Source: Nitrospirota bacterium (GTDB lineage: Bacteria > Nitrospirota > Nitrospiria > Nitrospirales > Nitrospiraceae). From it: 64,000 bases of DNA. Location: assembly GCA_004296885.1 (NCBI GenBank), contig SCVN01000023.1, positions 496,001-560,000 on the forward strand, written 5' to 3'. This document shows positions 17,107 through 29,669 of the stretch, piece by piece (within the stretch, counting starts at the first letter, position 1; every line of letters starts with the position of its first letter). The position numbers and the translations under genes were made by a program. The notes under the pieces were generated by a model. That model did no database searches. It saw only the letters and a program-made list of their open reading frames with translations, and was not told the DNA's origin.

Positions 17107-17952
17107 ATGAGCCCCCACACCGGCGAAAAGACCATTAAAGAACTCGTCAGGAACGAATATGGACAAGCCGCCTTGCAGGCCAAGAGCGGCGGCAGCTCTT
17201 GTTGCGGCGGCAAATCTCCGGGCAAGTTCGATCCGATCACATCCAATTTGTACCAGCCGTCAGAAACCGGGGCGCTGCCGGCCGAAGCTCTGTCGGCCTC
17301 GCTGGGCTGCGGCAACCCGACGGCCCTGGCCCAATTGAACCCAGGCGAAACCGTGCTGGACCTGGGATCGGGTGGCGGAATTGACGTCCTCCTCTCCGCC
17401 AAGCGCGTCGGCCCGACCGGCAAGGCCTACGGCCTCGACATGACGGACGAGATGCTGGCGCTCGCCCGCGACAACCAGCGCAAAGCCGGAGCGGACAACG
17501 TGGAGTTCCTGAAGGGCGAGATCGAGCAGATTCCCCTGCCCGACTGTTCCGTGGACGTGATCATTTCCAACTGCGTCATCAACCTCTCTCCGGACAAGGA
17601 CCGGGTCTTTGCCGAAGCCTTTCGGGTTCTGAAACCGGACGGCCGTCTGGCCGTCTCCGACGTGGTCGTGCGCGGACCGGTTCCGACTGAGATTCGCCGC
17701 AACATCGAGCTTTGGATGGGCTGCGTGGCCGGCGCGCTGGAAGAATCGGAGTATCTCGACAAGCTGGCCAAGGCTGGTTTTACAAACATCAGCCTGGAAC
17801 CGACCCGCATTTACCGGGCGGAAGATGCCCGAGAATTTCTGGCAGGAGCCGGGCTCAATGTCGAGGCCATCGCCCAGCAAGTCGACGGCAAATTTCTCAG
17901 CGCCTTCATCCGCGCCAGCAAACCGCCCGAGGAGCCAAGGCGCAATAACTGA
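17107..17952 (+). CDS. arsM: arsenite S-adenosylmethionine methyltransferase
   Basis: A 281-residue class I methyltransferase. The SAM-binding motif is [14 protein letters not shown] (about 83-96). Arsenic-binding cysteines Cys68, Cys156 (in [11 protein letters not shown]) and Cys206 (in GCVAGALEE) are in the positions of the conserved ArsM trio, and an N-terminal Cys32-Cys33 pair is present. The enzyme methylates As(III) to methylated and finally volatile species in the cytoplasm. GAAAGAGG precedes the ATG. It sits between arsR and acr3 and carries its own operator copy. Confidence 0.92.
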
Positions 17953-17984
17953 GCGAGCAATAGATATGATTATGATCTTTCACT

Positions 17985-18004
17985 ATCAATGATAACTAAT
18001 TGAT
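17985..18004. promoter_or_regulatory. ArsR operator-like palindrome, copy 3, before acr3
   Basis: ATCAAT (17985-17990) and ATTGAT (17999-18004) form an inverted repeat around GATAACTA. The half-sites match the other two copies, but the spacing between ATCAA and TTGAT is 10 rather than 6 bases, so binding may be weaker or different. Confidence 0.5.
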
Positions 18005-18091
18005 ATTTCAATAGATTCAAACGTTAAATCTCCAAACGAAAAGCGCCTTAATCTGTTCCAGCGCTACCTGACCCTCTGGGTCGGGCTCTGC

Positions 18092-19093
18092 ATGGTGGCG
18101 GGAGTGGCGATCGGGAAGCTCCTGCCTGGCCTGGTGGACTCCATGCGGTCGCTCGAACTGGGGGCAGACAGCCACGTCAACTTACCCATGGCGATCCTGA
18201 TCTGGCTCATGATCGTCCCGATGATGATGAACGTCGATTTCGCCTCGGTTCGCAACGTCGGCAAACGGCCGAAGGGACTGGCCGTGACCCTCCTCGTCAA
18301 TTGGCTGGTGAAGCCCTTTTCCATGGCGTTCTTGGCCTGGCTCTTTTTCCGCCATCTCTTCTCGGCCTGGATCACCCCGGCGGAAGCGGACCAGTACATC
18401 GCCGGGGCGATCATCCTGGCGGCCGCCCCCTGCACTGCCATGGTCTTCGTCTGGAGTTACCTGACCGACGGAGATCCGGCCTATACCCTGGTCCAGGTCT
18501 CGGTGAACGATCTGATCATGTTGGTCCTGTTCGCGCCCCTGGTCGGCTTTCTGGTCAGCGGCGCCTCTTCGTTGACCGTACCTTGGCTTGTCCTGTTCTA
18601 TTCGGTTGCAGCTTTTATCGTCATCCCCCTGACCATCGGGACGGCGCTCCGAGCCTGGTTCATCAGGCAACGAGGCCTCCGCTGGTTCGAGGAGAACCTG
18701 CTGCCCCGTTTCGCACCGGTCACGATCACCGCCCTATTGGCTACGCTGGTCCTGATTTTCGCTTTTCAGGCGGACAATATCATGGGGCGCTCCTTTCACG
18801 TGGCCCTGATCGCCGTCCCGATCCTGCTCCAGGTCTACTTCAACTCGTCGCTGGCCTACGGCCTCATGAAATTCCTGCACGTGCCCCATGCGATCGCCGC
18901 GCCAGGCGCGCTGATCGGCGCCAGCAACTTTTTCGAGCTGGCCGTGGCCACCGCCATCGCCCTCTACGGTCCCGGCTCGGGCGCCGCGCTGGCGACGGTC
19001 GTCGGTGTGCTGGTCGAGGTGCCCGTCATGCTCTCGGTCTGCGCCGCCTGCAACCGAACGCGCCATTGGTTTCCGAGAGAGGCAGCCGCATGA
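18092..19093 (+). CDS. acr3: ACR3-family arsenite efflux transporter
   Basis: A 10-TM permease of the bile/arsenite/riboflavin superfamily. The ACR3 hallmark Cys lies in AAAPCTAMVFVWSYLTDGDP, with further family segments around NLPMAILIWLMIVPMMMNVDF. It exports As(III)-thiolate or arsenite across the inner membrane. The coordinates start at the first canonical codon (ATG 18092), but the coding frame clearly continues upstream: KRLNLFQRYLTLWVGLC is encoded from 18041 on and is the usual start of TM1. The frame is open back to a TAA at 17993 without any ATG, GTG or TTG. A rare start (ATT, ATA or CTG) or a lost start codon is likely. The stop overlaps arsC (ATGA). Confidence 0.88.
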   Translation: MVAGVAIGKLLPGLVDSMRSLELGADSHVNLPMAILIWLMIVPMMMNVDFASVRNVGKRPKGLAVTLLVNWLVKPFSMAFLAWLFFRHLFSAWITPAEADQYIAGAIILAAAPCTAMVFVWSYLTDGDPAYTLVQVSVNDLIMLVLFAPLVGFLVSGASSLTVPWLVLFYSVAAFIVIPLTIGTALRAWFIRQRGLRWFEENLLPRFAPVTITALLATLVLIFAFQADNIMGRSFHVALIAVPILLQVYFNSSLAYGLMKFLHVPHAIAAPGALIGASNFFELAVATAIALYGPGSGAALATVVGVLVEVPVMLSVCAACNRTRHWFPREAAA

Positions 19094-19509
19094 AGCCACG
19101 CGTCTTGTTTCTCTGCACCGGTAATTCCTGCCGCAGCCAGATGGCGGAAGGCTGGCTCCGACATCTGGCCGGAGACCGTTTCGATGTGGCCAGCGCGGGC
19201 ACTCATCCGGTCGGCTTGAACCCAGTCGCGGTCGCAGCCATGCGCGAGGTCGGCGTGGATATTTCACGGCACACTTCCAAAAACGTCAATCAGTTCCTTG
19301 GCGAGCGATTCGACTACGTCATCACAGTCTGCGACAGTGCCAAAGAAGCCTGTCCGACTTTTCCCGGCGCCACGTCCCGCTTGCACTGGAGTTTTGATGA
19401 TCCCGCTGCAGCCCAGGGCTCGCTGGAGGAACGGCTGCAGGTCTTCCGACGGGTCCGCGACGAGATCGCCGGACGCCTACGCCTGTTCCTTGCCTTCGTT
19501 CGAATCTAA
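19090..19509 (+). CDS. arsC: arsenate reductase, thioredoxin-coupled type
   Basis: A 139-residue low-molecular-weight phosphatase-fold protein. The CX5R loop is CTGNSCR (Cys9 to Arg15), followed by the two resolving cysteines Cys81 and Cys88 in TVCDSAKEACPTFPG. This is the Staphylococcus/Bacillus pI258-type ArsC, which reduces As(V) to As(III) using thioredoxin. The ATG overlaps the acr3 stop, so reduction and export are co-translated. It ends the arsenic cluster. Confidence 0.9.
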   Translation: MKPRVLFLCTGNSCRSQMAEGWLRHLAGDRFDVASAGTHPVGLNPVAVAAMREVGVDISRHTSKNVNQFLGERFDYVITVCDSAKEACPTFPGATSRLHWSFDDPAAAQGSLEERLQVFRRVRDEIAGRLRLFLAFVRI

Positions 19510-19597
19510 ACCGCCCGCAGCACGACACCGTCACAGCCTTTCCACAAAACACAGGGCCGTCTCTGCCCATCGACGAGTCTGCTCGCTCACACGTCAG

Positions 19598-19635
19598 TTT
19601 ACCCACTCTTAACGTTTCGGCAACCGCATCGCAAC
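19598..19635 (+). promoter_or_regulatory. Pho box array upstream of pstS
   Basis: Pentamers TTTAC, TTAAC, GCAAC and GCAAC begin at 19598, 19609, 19620 and 19631, exactly 11 bases apart, as in PhoB-type direct-repeat boxes. A plausible -10 TATGCT lies at 19646-19651, 10 bases after the last repeat, the usual spacing for PhoB-activated promoters. Confidence 0.65.
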
Positions 19636-19699
19636 AGAGCTCATCTATGCTGGTCCTGTTCTCAAGGGCTCGCAACAGAAGATATCAATGGAGGAACGC

Positions 19700-24033: not shown

Positions 24034-24138
24034 GCGCACGCTTCCGTCGCTGCCGATGCGAAGCCGCGCCCCCAACACAGATCTCGCCGCCCGCGTCCCT
24101 GCTTCTTGTTTCTCTTCCCCTCTCCTCCAGGGAATCAT

Positions 24139-24176
24139 TTTACGCACCTTTAACACGGCGCTCATTCATCCGTCAC
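24139..24176 (+). promoter_or_regulatory. Pho box array upstream of the porin gene
   Basis: TTTAC (24139) and TTAAC (24150) are followed at the same 11-base step by CTCAT (24161) and GTCAC (24172). The 16-base core TTTACGCACCTTTAAC matches the pstS site in 13 of 16 positions. A weak -10 (TACAAA, 24187-24192) follows at 10 bases. Confidence 0.55.
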
Positions 24177-24286
24177 AGCACTACCGTACAAAGTCTCCAG
24201 CAAGATCAAGACCGTACCGCGTAGCGCGATTATCGAAACAGGCCTAAACCGATATGACTATCATCATTAACAAGGAGGACACATCG

Positions 24287-26996: not shown

Positions 26997-27980
26997 GTGT
27001 TTCGGCATACCATGCGCTCCCGACCCAGCCCGATCATTCCCCTTCTCCTTATAGTACTGCTCTGCACGGCGCCCGCTTGCGGTGCGCTGAGCCATGAGCG
27101 GCTCGTCTACAATGAACGGGATGTGCAGATAGGCACCGAGCACGATCCTTCCACCAGCAGTTCCCCGCCCACCGTCCTGAACAGTCACCCGGCTCGTTTG
27201 ACGGTGGAAGATATCCGGGCCCTGCTCAGTTCGGTTCAGGTCAGCGGCTGGAGCGGCATGGTCGGCGGCCTCCTCAGGGACCCCACACCCATCCCTTTGC
27301 TCAAAGAAGAAGAGTTGAATCTGGTGGCCAAGCCTCTGGTGTCTGCACTGAGCCAGGCAAGACCGGACGAACGGGTGTTCTTCTCAGTTCCCAATCTGGC
27401 TGTCCGCTACAACGAGGACCGGACGGCCGGGTCCCTCTTCATTCGCGGACCCTACCTGCACCTGACGCTGCAAGACCACACGGCCTTTGTGCGCACCGAC
27501 ACGGCCGGCGGGGAGGACTATAAGGACCCGCGGGACTTCAAAGGGATGCATCTCTGGCTGGCGAGGCCGGCTCAACCAGCCTCGCTCTCTCCGGCGGACA
27601 CACCGGCCTGGGGCCCCTTTGAGAAAGTCCATATTTCAATGAAGATTCAGGATGTCCTGGCGGCCCGCTCACTCCCTATCGCCGCCCAGACGGGACAGCC
27701 AGTACCGCAGGTGCCTGCTGCACAACTGGTCCCAGTCATTCCTACGCTACCAACCTCCAAGGGCAGTTCAGGCGCACCAACTACAGCCGAGTCGGCGGAA
27801 GACTTACGTCTGATGCTTCGCGAACTCTCCTCCGCCAACCTCGAGCTCCGCTCGCGCTTGAAAGACCAAGCCCAAGACATGCAGTCGCTCAAAGACGAGC
27901 TGGCAAAACTGAAACAAGAACTGACGGACAGCAAGCCCAAAGCCAAGTCTCGCCGCAAACCCGCCGCGCCACAGCAATAG
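26997..27980 (+). CDS. lipoprotein-like secreted protein with C-terminal coiled coil
   Basis: A protein of about 327 residues. A hydrophobic signal segment (IIPLLLIVLLCTAPAC) ends in a possible lipobox Cys. A globular middle follows (NLVAKPLVSALSQARPDERVFFSVPNLAVRY split over about residues 100-160), then a proline/threonine-rich linker and a C-terminal helix with strong heptad character (LRELSSANLELRSRLKDQ ... LKQELT) and a basic tail. The start is unsure: GTG 26997 has AAGGAT at good distance, while ATG 27012 has no ribosome binding site. I do not recognise the family. Neighbouring genes are lipoproteins of the phosphate-linked region. Confidence 0.6.
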   Translation: MFRHTMRSRPSPIIPLLLIVLLCTAPACGALSHERLVYNERDVQIGTEHDPSTSSSPPTVLNSHPARLTVEDIRALLSSVQVSGWSGMVGGLLRDPTPIPLLKEEELNLVAKPLVSALSQARPDERVFFSVPNLAVRYNEDRTAGSLFIRGPYLHLTLQDHTAFVRTDTAGGEDYKDPRDFKGMHLWLARPAQPASLSPADTPAWGPFEKVHISMKIQDVLAARSLPIAAQTGQPVPQVPAAQLVPVIPTLPTSKGSSGAPTTAESAEDLRLMLRELSSANLELRSRLKDQAQDMQSLKDELAKLKQELTDSKPKAKSRRKPAAPQQ

Positions 27981-28018
27981 TTTACACAGATGTAACAGGC
28001 TCGCTATCCGCCAGTAAT
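27981..28018 (+). promoter_or_regulatory. Pho box-like array upstream of the TPR lipoprotein gene
   Basis: TTTAC (27981), GTAAC (27992), GCTAT (28003) and GTAAT (28014) are spaced exactly 11 bases. A -10 candidate TAGAGT (28029-28034) follows 10 bases after the last pentamer, matching the layout at pstS. Confidence 0.5.
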
Positions 28019-28086
28019 GGCGGCAGGTTAGAGTTCTACGCATGTTGACTCGGAACTCACGAACCGCCACCGACCCGGAGGTATTG

Positions 28087-28965
28087 ATGACCGCCTCTAC
28101 ACCCACTGCGTCCCAACTGCTCGGCGCCCTGACGGCCCTCCTCCTCACTTGGGGCTGTACCGCTGTGCAGACAAACCATCCTCAGGCCACAGACCCCTTC
28201 GCCAGGATCATGGCGCAAGGCGAACAGGAGTTTACGCAGGGGCAGAGCGATCGAGCCGTGGCAAGCTTCTCGCGGGCGATCCGGATGGAACCGGCCAGAG
28301 CCGAGGCGTGGAATGCCTTGGCCTTCGTCAAAATGCACCAGGGAAAACGGGCGGAAGCCGTCCACGACCTATCCCAAGCCACCACGCTTGCTCCGGAGAA
28401 CGTCCTCTATCGCAACAACCTCGGCGTCGCCTACCTCGAACTTGGGAATCCGGCTTCGGCGCTCGATGTCCTCCAGGAGGCGGTTCGACTTTCTCCCCGG
28501 TCGGCTCTGGCGCTCACCCATCGGGGGCTCGCCTATCGCCAGCTCGGACGGTTGGACGAAGCCTTGGCCGACTTCAACGCTGCCCTGGATCTTGATAATC
28601 GCATGGCAGCCGCCTATGCGAACAGGGCCGTGGTCCATGCCCTCAAGCGCGACTTTCTTCTGGCCAAACAAGACCTGGACCGGGCGGAAGCCCTCGACCG
28701 ATCCCTTGCCGAGGTCTATGAGAGCCGCGGCTTGATCCAGATCCTGACGGGAGAATTCGACCTTGCGGTGCAGGATCTGTCTCAGGCTCTTGCGCTTGGA
28801 GCGACCGACAACCTCCTCTATTTCAACCGAGCCGTAGCCTTGTCCATGTTGGGCGACTCAGCCAGCGCCCAGCGGGACTATCAGACGTCTTGCCAACGTG
28901 GCTATACCCCAGCTTGTCCGTTCAGCCAAGTTCATTACTCGCCTCCCTCTTCCGCAGCCCTTTAA
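28087..28965 (+). CDS. TPR-repeat lipoprotein
   Basis: A 292-residue lipoprotein (lipobox TWGC) followed by six or more tetratricopeptide repeats from about residue 40 to 275, for example AWNALAFVKMHQGKRAEAVH, LYRNNLGVAYLELGNPASAL and AYANRAVVHALKRDFLLAKQ. TPR lipoproteins of this kind usually scaffold outer-membrane or periplasmic complexes. ATG 28087 is preferred to 28042 because GGAGG at 28077-28081 is well spaced and the signal peptide then has normal length. A Pho-box-like array sits upstream. Confidence 0.8.
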   Translation: MTASTPTASQLLGALTALLLTWGCTAVQTNHPQATDPFARIMAQGEQEFTQGQSDRAVASFSRAIRMEPARAEAWNALAFVKMHQGKRAEAVHDLSQATTLAPENVLYRNNLGVAYLELGNPASALDVLQEAVRLSPRSALALTHRGLAYRQLGRLDEALADFNAALDLDNRMAAAYANRAVVHALKRDFLLAKQDLDRAEALDRSLAEVYESRGLIQILTGEFDLAVQDLSQALALGATDNLLYFNRAVALSMLGDSASAQRDYQTSCQRGYTPACPFSQVHYSPPSSAAL

Positions 28966-28996: not shown

Positions 28997-29025
28997 GCTA
29001 GGCCGGTTATTTCGACCGGCCTAGC
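28997..29025. terminator. strong hairpin after the TPR gene
   Basis: GCTAGGCCGGT (28997-29007) and ACCGGCCTAGC (29015-29025) form a perfect 11-bp stem with a 7-base loop, 31 bases after the TPR stop. The sequence after it is AT-rich (AAAATTTATTG) rather than a clean U-tract. Confidence 0.55.
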
Positions 29026-29033
29026 AAAATTTA

Positions 29034-29099
29034 TTGTTGCATTAATGTAAATTCTATGTTAAATAATTGTTACGTTTAAATTACGAAATTGTTATCGGT
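29034..29099 (+). promoter_or_regulatory. six-fold 11-bp repeat array upstream of Slp paralogue 2
   Basis: Six consecutive 11-mers with consensus near wTGTTAnnnnn: the core pentamers GTTGC, GTAAA, GTTAA, GTTAC, ATTAC and GTTAT begin at 29036, 29047, 29058, 29069, 29080 and 29091. The pentamers are the reverse complements of those at pstS, so the array has opposite polarity. The region is markedly AT-rich. Confidence 0.5.
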
Positions 29100-29135
29100 A
29101 GTCCCATTCAAGGATTCCAAGTAAGGAGGTGACCC

Positions 29136-29669
29136 ATGAAAGCCTTCACCGTCACTTTAATGGCCGCCCTGGCTGCCCCCGTCCTGGCCTATGCCGCCCC
29201 GTCGCTTTTCCCCGCCGGCATAACCAACGACATTACCCCAAACGTGGAGTTTGGCGTGCTCAAGGCCAAGCCGGACACCTATAAGGGACGCGCTGTTCAG
29301 TTGGCCGGCCGCATCATGGAAGTCCGAGAGGTGGACAATGGCACCTTAATCGTAGCCAAGCAGCTCCCCATTCAGGAGTATCCAGCCTATGGCCCGGTGG
29401 AGACCGTCGGATCCACTGGGCTCATTGCGGTTCTGTATCCGGGAAAAGTCGATCCGGCAGGACTTAGGGATGGCAATAAGTTCATCGTGGTCGCTGAAAT
29501 GCAGGGAGCCAAAGCGGTGAGCTTTGACGGGGCCACGAGGCCGCAGACCTATCTCCTCGCCCGCTGCATGCATGTCTGGAAGACCGGAAGATATTACGAG
29601 ATCTCCGACTTCCCCCACGTAGCGGACGGCTATTACCCCTTGGAAGAACAGACCTATTGCACCAAGTAA
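29136..29669 (+). CDS. Slp-family protein, paralogue 2, without lipobox
   Basis: A 177-residue paralogue of the Slp-like gene at 25.9 kb (AVQLAGRIMEVREVDNGTLI, ... CMHVWKTGRYYEISDFPHV ... YYPLEEQTYC). Its signal peptide ends ALAYA and no cysteine follows, so it should be cleaved by signal peptidase I and be periplasmic or outer-membrane attached by other means. AAGGAGGTGA precedes the ATG. Two conserved cysteines near the C-terminus (RCMHVW and TYC) occur in all three paralogues and may form a disulfide. The upstream array of six 11-bp repeats suggests phosphate control. Confidence 0.72.
   Translation: MKAFTVTLMAALAAPVLAYAAPSLFPAGITNDITPNVEFGVLKAKPDTYKGRAVQLAGRIMEVREVDNGTLIVAKQLPIQEYPAYGPVETVGSTGLIAVLYPGKVDPAGLRDGNKFIVVAEMQGAKAVSFDGATRPQTYLLARCMHVWKTGRYYEISDFPHVADGYYPLEEQTYCTK

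Follow-up and report, generated by a model that had tools for sequence, protein, structure and literature searches.

A conserved PhoB-type array reads away from slpB in Nitrospirota genomes and may repress the gene

Six 11-bp units with a PhoB-type motif lie in a row upstream of slpB, a Slp family gene in a pst gene cluster of a Nitrospirota bacterium. The motif reads away from slpB, the arrangement is conserved in relatives, and the −10 hexamer found at standard spacing in other arrays is missing. We regard this as very probably a real, conserved, reversed array of PhoB type. We further propose, at a probability of roughly 55%, that it is a PhoB operator that represses slpB in phosphate starvation; both the binding by PhoB and the sign of control are what we infer from the sequence.

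Gene cluster and the slpB gene

The DNA analysed here (the window) is a stretch of 64,000 nucleotides from a 3.26-Mb genome (G000), for which a sister species of the same genus (G003) served as comparison. Its cluster runs pstS-pstC-pstA-pstB-phoU, a porin gene, slpA, two more genes, a TPR gene and slpB, followed by slpC on the minus strand. PstS was identified by family match, and the next four genes are those that we take to be pstC, pstA, pstB and phoU. The porin had no family match. Both SlpB and SlpC score above the cut-off of the Slp profile; SlpA does not and owes its name to similarity. Against the NCBIfam slp model, SlpB scores below the cut-off (33.6 of 88.45). SlpB of the window and of G003 has no lipobox cysteine, which is kept in three other, more distant aligned orthologs, so SlpB of this genus may be periplasmic instead of lipid-anchored.

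A hairpin that is probably a terminator separates the TPR gene from the array (Table 1). One of 200 shuffles was equally stable, and a similar shape is seen by eye in G003. Directly before pstS, positions 17107-19509 hold three genes that are presumably arsenic methyltransferase-, ACR3- and arsenate reductase-like; relatives of the first two also precede pstS in G031.

Table 1. Position and strand of the array and of features near it in the window.
Feature	Position	Strand	Description
Forward PhoB-type box of pstS	19596-19651	+	−10 TATGCT at unit 4 + 15
Forward PhoB-type box of porin gene	24137-24192	+	−10 TACAAA at unit 4 + 15, register by eye
Forward PhoB-type box of TPR gene (28042-28965)	27979-28034	+	−10 TAGAGT at unit 4 + 15
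Hairpin, probable terminator	28997-29025	+	Between TPR gene and array; −24.1 kcal/mol, z −4.1
PhoB-type array, six 11-bp units	29034-29099	−	Motif reads opposite to slpB; from sequence, shuffles and matrix
Candidate slpB promoter within array	29067-29095	+	TTGTTA, 17 bp, TGTTAT; best-scoring in window
slpB, Slp family protein, gene behind array	29136-29669	+	PF03843, 47.3 bits (cut-off 22.5)

A regular row of six units

The six cores are GTTGC (29036), GTAAA (29047), GTTAA (29058), GTTAC (29069), ATTAC (29080) and GTTAT (29091). Successive cores are exactly 11 bp apart, which bears out the six 11-mers in a row described in a sequence-only reading of this DNA. That reading also held that the row has unusually many units and a polarity opposite to pstS, and it was right on both: pstS boxes here have four slots, and the pstS box of the window reads TTTAC, TTAAC, GCAAC, GCAAC. 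The sixth unit is the least certain. Its TGTTAT may double as a −10 hexamer, although the sister species has GTTAA in place of this core.

The period-11 score of positions 29025-29100 is 91, compared with 58 ± 6 for dinucleotide shuffles, none of which scored as high (0/2000). Periods 5-10 and 12 of the same stretch were ordinary relative to these shuffles. With a matrix built from pstS boxes, the minus-strand array scores from 22.4 bits (three units) to 32.7 bits across three to six units, and 0 of 5000 local shuffles reached such scores. AT-richness therefore does not explain the array. The shuffled controls that the earlier reading had named as a possible refutation thus yielded neither the 11-bp period nor the motif score from AT-rich composition. 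Chance periodicity of AT-rich DNA has a negligible probability, being opposed by both sets of shuffles and by conservation of the array at 15 loci; in its favor are the AT-rich composition of the surrounding stretch and the result of a crude three-core pattern, which had 10 matches genome-wide versus 9 for a backwards control and so gives no regulon list.

Motif and polarity

We gathered pstS upstream regions from 16 genomes. A pstS-directed box of 11-bp units (TTAAC, GTAAC, GTCAT) was present in 15 of them, two of these weak (L048, L049), and no box was found upstream of pstS at L044. The PhoB-type matrix was trained on 14 of these boxes, excluding L035 (own genome) and L044. Its top match in the window is the slpB array, on the minus strand (22.4 bits versus 5.8 forward). 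The array is thus built, like the boxes of the same organisms, from direct-repeat 11-bp units with a PhoB-type core. The next matches are the forward boxes at the porin gene, pstS and the TPR gene, followed by the box at 2911 described below. At a threshold of at least 15 bits, the window contains 7 overlapping matches in four places; 40 shuffled windows contain none.

The core is near-palindromic, so the polarity call rests on the flanks. With flanks included, the pstS matrix gives 11.1-25.4 bits to the reversed reading of the 15 slpB upstream regions and at most 8.9 bits to the forward reading. A genome-wide model of pstS boxes returned the slpB array as its sole match at E≤10, itself a weak one (E 0.26); this model is insensitive, as it missed the genome's own pstS box.

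Conservation in the SlpB clade

The Slp survey read 71 loci and retained 60 distinct proteins that are at least 130 residues long; 52 of 235 genomes had a match at E≤1e-35, and upstream regions were inspected for part of these. Among the 60 proteins, reversed arrays are confined to one clade of 17, the SlpB clade, where 15 members have one. These 15 loci, which include the close pairs G079/G080 and G211/G213, fall into two families (f1 and f3; six f3 loci are Nitrospirales or Nitrospira MAG records), and every array found is reversed. The two members without an array are long-branch genes of G029, and the 18 slp genes located directly behind a porin gene also have none. On the Slp tree one change explains the array label, as it does in 58% of bootstrap trees. 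Within the genus, both species have six units, with 29 of 30 core positions and 21 of 33 spacer positions identical (Fisher p 0.001).

Many slpB arrays (L100, L101, L105, L007, L096, L099) are immediately preceded by a TCACA/TGTGA-type palindrome (e.g. TCACAATTGTGA) followed by AAATTTT. This palindrome looks like a second operator from its sequence. The window and G003 retain AAAATTT alone.

Absence of the standard −10 hexamer

We compared the slpB arrays with 76 other PhoB-type arrays of the loci retrieved, a set that includes a few opposite-strand readings of real boxes and some arrays picked one unit out of register (among them the porin box of the window). In this set, a spacing of exactly 15 bp separates the fourth core from the −10, with 3.26 mean matches at this offset versus 0.7-2.3 at the 29 other offsets. 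At least three of six matches occur in 60/76 arrays and at least four in 37/76; 13-14 of the 76 are pstS boxes used to train the matrix, and their −10 lay outside the training. None of the 76 has a TTG at the −35 place. The f3 genes beside phoBR obey the same rule. In the window's own genome, the rule fits pstS, the TPR gene and C23:495833 by script, and the porin box and a box at 2911 by eye. The 15-bp spacing from last core to −10 is the same as in E. coli phoA.

The slpB arrays depart from this rule. We tested 11 of the 15, after removing those under 13 bits (including G223) and repeated 33-mers. Read in the direction of the array, 0 of 11 have a −10 of at least four matches at this position (p 1e-4 against 37/76), and two have three matches. 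Canonical Pho boxes, of the E. coli phoA/pstS type, are likewise made of 11-bp direct-repeat units, but they are directed toward the gene and stand in for the −35 element (PMC4415409), whereas all 15 slpB arrays point away from it and the arrangement of a −10 hexamer at 15 bp from the last core without a −35 was found at 0 of 11. Because the other arrays keep to a rule exact to one base, departures from it like that of slpB can be recognized in the genomes of uncultured Nitrospirales.

The missing −10 also bears on a reading in which the array drives minus-strand transcription, either of a divergent gene or of antisense RNA into the TPR gene. In five f1 genomes, the array is directed at an SlpA-like gene that diverges from slpB, and a further three SlpA-like genes are preceded by their own forward boxes with a −10 at + 15 (register by eye). 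Against such a promoter are the 0/11 count and the arrays of G000, G003 and G050, which are kept without an adjoining divergent gene. We judge this reading very improbable.

Overlap with predicted slpB promoters

In all 13 slpB relatives outside the genus, the array overlaps a gene-strand pair of a TTG-type −35 and a −10, a predicted promoter; several of these genomes are close relatives, and the pair is not the top-scoring one at four loci (it ranks second in G017 and G223 and fourth in G079 and G080). The eight f3 loci all have TTGnAn, a 17-bp spacer (once 18) and TATAAT, TAGAAT or TATGAT, with the −10 placed 17 bp (once 18) after the third core. At all five f1 loci outside the genus, a 17-bp spacer separates TTGnnG from TACAnn, and the −10 falls within the first unit. 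The window has its own candidate (Table 1), but G000 and G003 have no conserved promoter pair in common, the −10 of the window not being kept in G003, and the place of the slpB transcription start in this genus is itself a prediction. Between f1 and f3 the overlap is kept while the register shifts, as expected of a blocking site; a blocking operator tolerates two registers relative to the promoter, and an activator that contacts polymerase does not. The earlier reading, which had seen room for three PhoB dimers, was correct about a reversed PhoB-type motif, which all 15 slpB arrays show. Activation by three dimers fared less well: with no fixed −10, and with probable slpB promoters overlapped in relatives, repression fits better than activation.

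Reversed direct-repeat boxes of the OmpR family are known at promoters: the slpB array shares this polarity with architecture V of Salmonella PhoP (PMC3335776). A reversed PhoP box there is active when it lies 27, 37 or 48 nt from the −10 and inactive at 12 or 23 nt, and repression is assigned to boxes that sit on the −10 or downstream of it (PMC3335776). By analogy, PhoB might bind the reversed array and activate slpB through an unusual geometry, a reading favored by these active Salmonella spacings and by the position of slpB among genes with forward boxes. The activating Salmonella boxes lie farther from the −10 than the slpB array does; the reversed units of f3 end 12 and 23 nt (some 1 nt) from the −10, where reversed PhoP boxes are inactive, although the PhoP comparison is an analogy (PMC3335776). 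The register relative to the promoter also varies between f1 and f3, whereas other arrays are precise to one base. We consider activation by this geometry unlikely.

Candidate regulators

The genome of the window encodes three Trans_reg_C regulators: PhoB-like, KdpE-like and CopR-like proteins. From its sequence, the PhoB-like protein is the natural candidate to bind the array. PhoB is its best family match, below the NCBIfam PhoB cut-off in G000 (239 versus 296 bits), and its gene precedes genes for a PhoR-like kinase and a PiT-like transporter. The protein is present in 14 of 15 array genomes (E≤1e-60; G211 is the exception) and is 48-54% identical in f3, where forward boxes of the same type (TTAACA/GTAACA) occur at the PstS-like genes linked to PhoB.

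The CopR-like regulator, encoded next to a kinase gene and htrA, occurs in 14/15 array genomes and is 76-78% identical across them (93% in G003); it stays a rival because it is better conserved than the PhoB-like protein. Such an OmpR-type regulator might read TGTTAC as a direct motif and activate slpB, the likeness to a reversed PhoB motif then being a coincidence of the near-palindromic core. The f3 spacing of 12 and 23 nt is that of active direct PhoP boxes (PMC3335776), which agrees with this reading. Against it, the full pstS-box matrix including flanks fits the reversed reading alone, the genome has three such regulators only, and the sites found near CopR-like genes are only of CTTAAT type (3/13 loci at ≥11 bits), unlike the array. 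Activation by another regulator is, in our estimate, improbable, and CopR-like control of slpB is disfavored. At the f3 loci L155:2252, L156:2431 and L161:5885, a common CTTAAT-type repeat lies in the gap that separates the CopR-like kinase gene from its neighbor. This repeat resembles a PmrA box.

Proposed repression by PhoB

Repression of slpB by PhoB would proceed as follows. In phosphate starvation, PhoB~P would fill the row of half-sites head to tail. It would keep RNA polymerase off slpB because it would face the wrong way and cover the core promoter. The same PhoB~P would activate pstS, the porin/slpA genes and the TPR gene through their forward boxes. Cells with ample phosphate would thus make SlpB, and starved cells would turn it off.

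This proposal resembles autorepression of E. coli phoB, in which PhoB represses its own gene from a site on the antisense strand at the −10, by blocking RNA polymerase (PMC6194859). Both systems have opposite-strand PhoB half-sites over the core promoter, which at slpB is a predicted one, and we propose the same blocking action for the slpB array. The E. coli site consists of two weak half-sites whose tracts are 5 bp apart, and a normal activating box lies next to it (PMC6194859), whereas the slpB array is a regular row of six at 11 bp that stands alone and is conserved across families. In B. subtilis, PhoP~P represses tagAB, so that a phosphate regulator both represses and activates genes within one response, as proposed here (PMC6232261). 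The functions of tagAB and slpB differ.

Other points count against repression. The distances of the f3 array to the −10, 12 and 23 nt, are those at which direct PhoP boxes of Salmonella are active (PMC3335776); a protein whose direct motif is TGTTAC could therefore act as an activator. The limited likeness of the candidate regulator to PhoB, given above, is a further point. As slpB sits in a cluster proposed to be PhoB-activated, induction would be natural. Intragenic PhoB sites tested in E. coli showed no roadblock action (PMC10294691), which counts against easy generalization. The open-access literature that we searched, outside which most subscription papers lie, yielded no paper on a reverse-oriented Pho box for PhoB and none on an opposite-strand Pho box and PhoB repression as a combined topic.

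A wider possibility, which we put forward tentatively, is that one regulator switches between paralogous outer-membrane proteins through nothing but the direction of the operator: in starvation, forward boxes would turn on porin/SlpA and TPR, the reversed array would turn off SlpB, the array would have been kept since before the two families split, and direction and register would encode the sign. If so, operator polarity and register would reveal the sign of control by PhoB, and slpB would encode an outer-membrane protein that phosphate starvation turns off instead of on.

Other PhoB-type boxes

The forward TPR-gene box is present in the window and at 8 of 10 other TPR-bearing loci scanned, and absent at L072 and L087. 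A match on contig C14 (L069) was rejected because it sits in ATTCAACATT-rich DNA. Another array is located at C8:36546, some 10 bp ahead of a gene on the minus strand.

Positions 2911-2966 of the window contain a forward PhoB-type box (11.2 bits) with a −10 TATGCT at standard spacing (by eye), before a small ORF; the gene behind this box and ORF is presumably exopolyphosphatase-like. Just left of the window, at C23:495833 of G000 (L065:3334), a forward box of 20.9 bits has a −10 CATGAT at standard spacing. The membrane protein encoded downstream of it has no NCBIfam match, and we take it to be PsiE-like.
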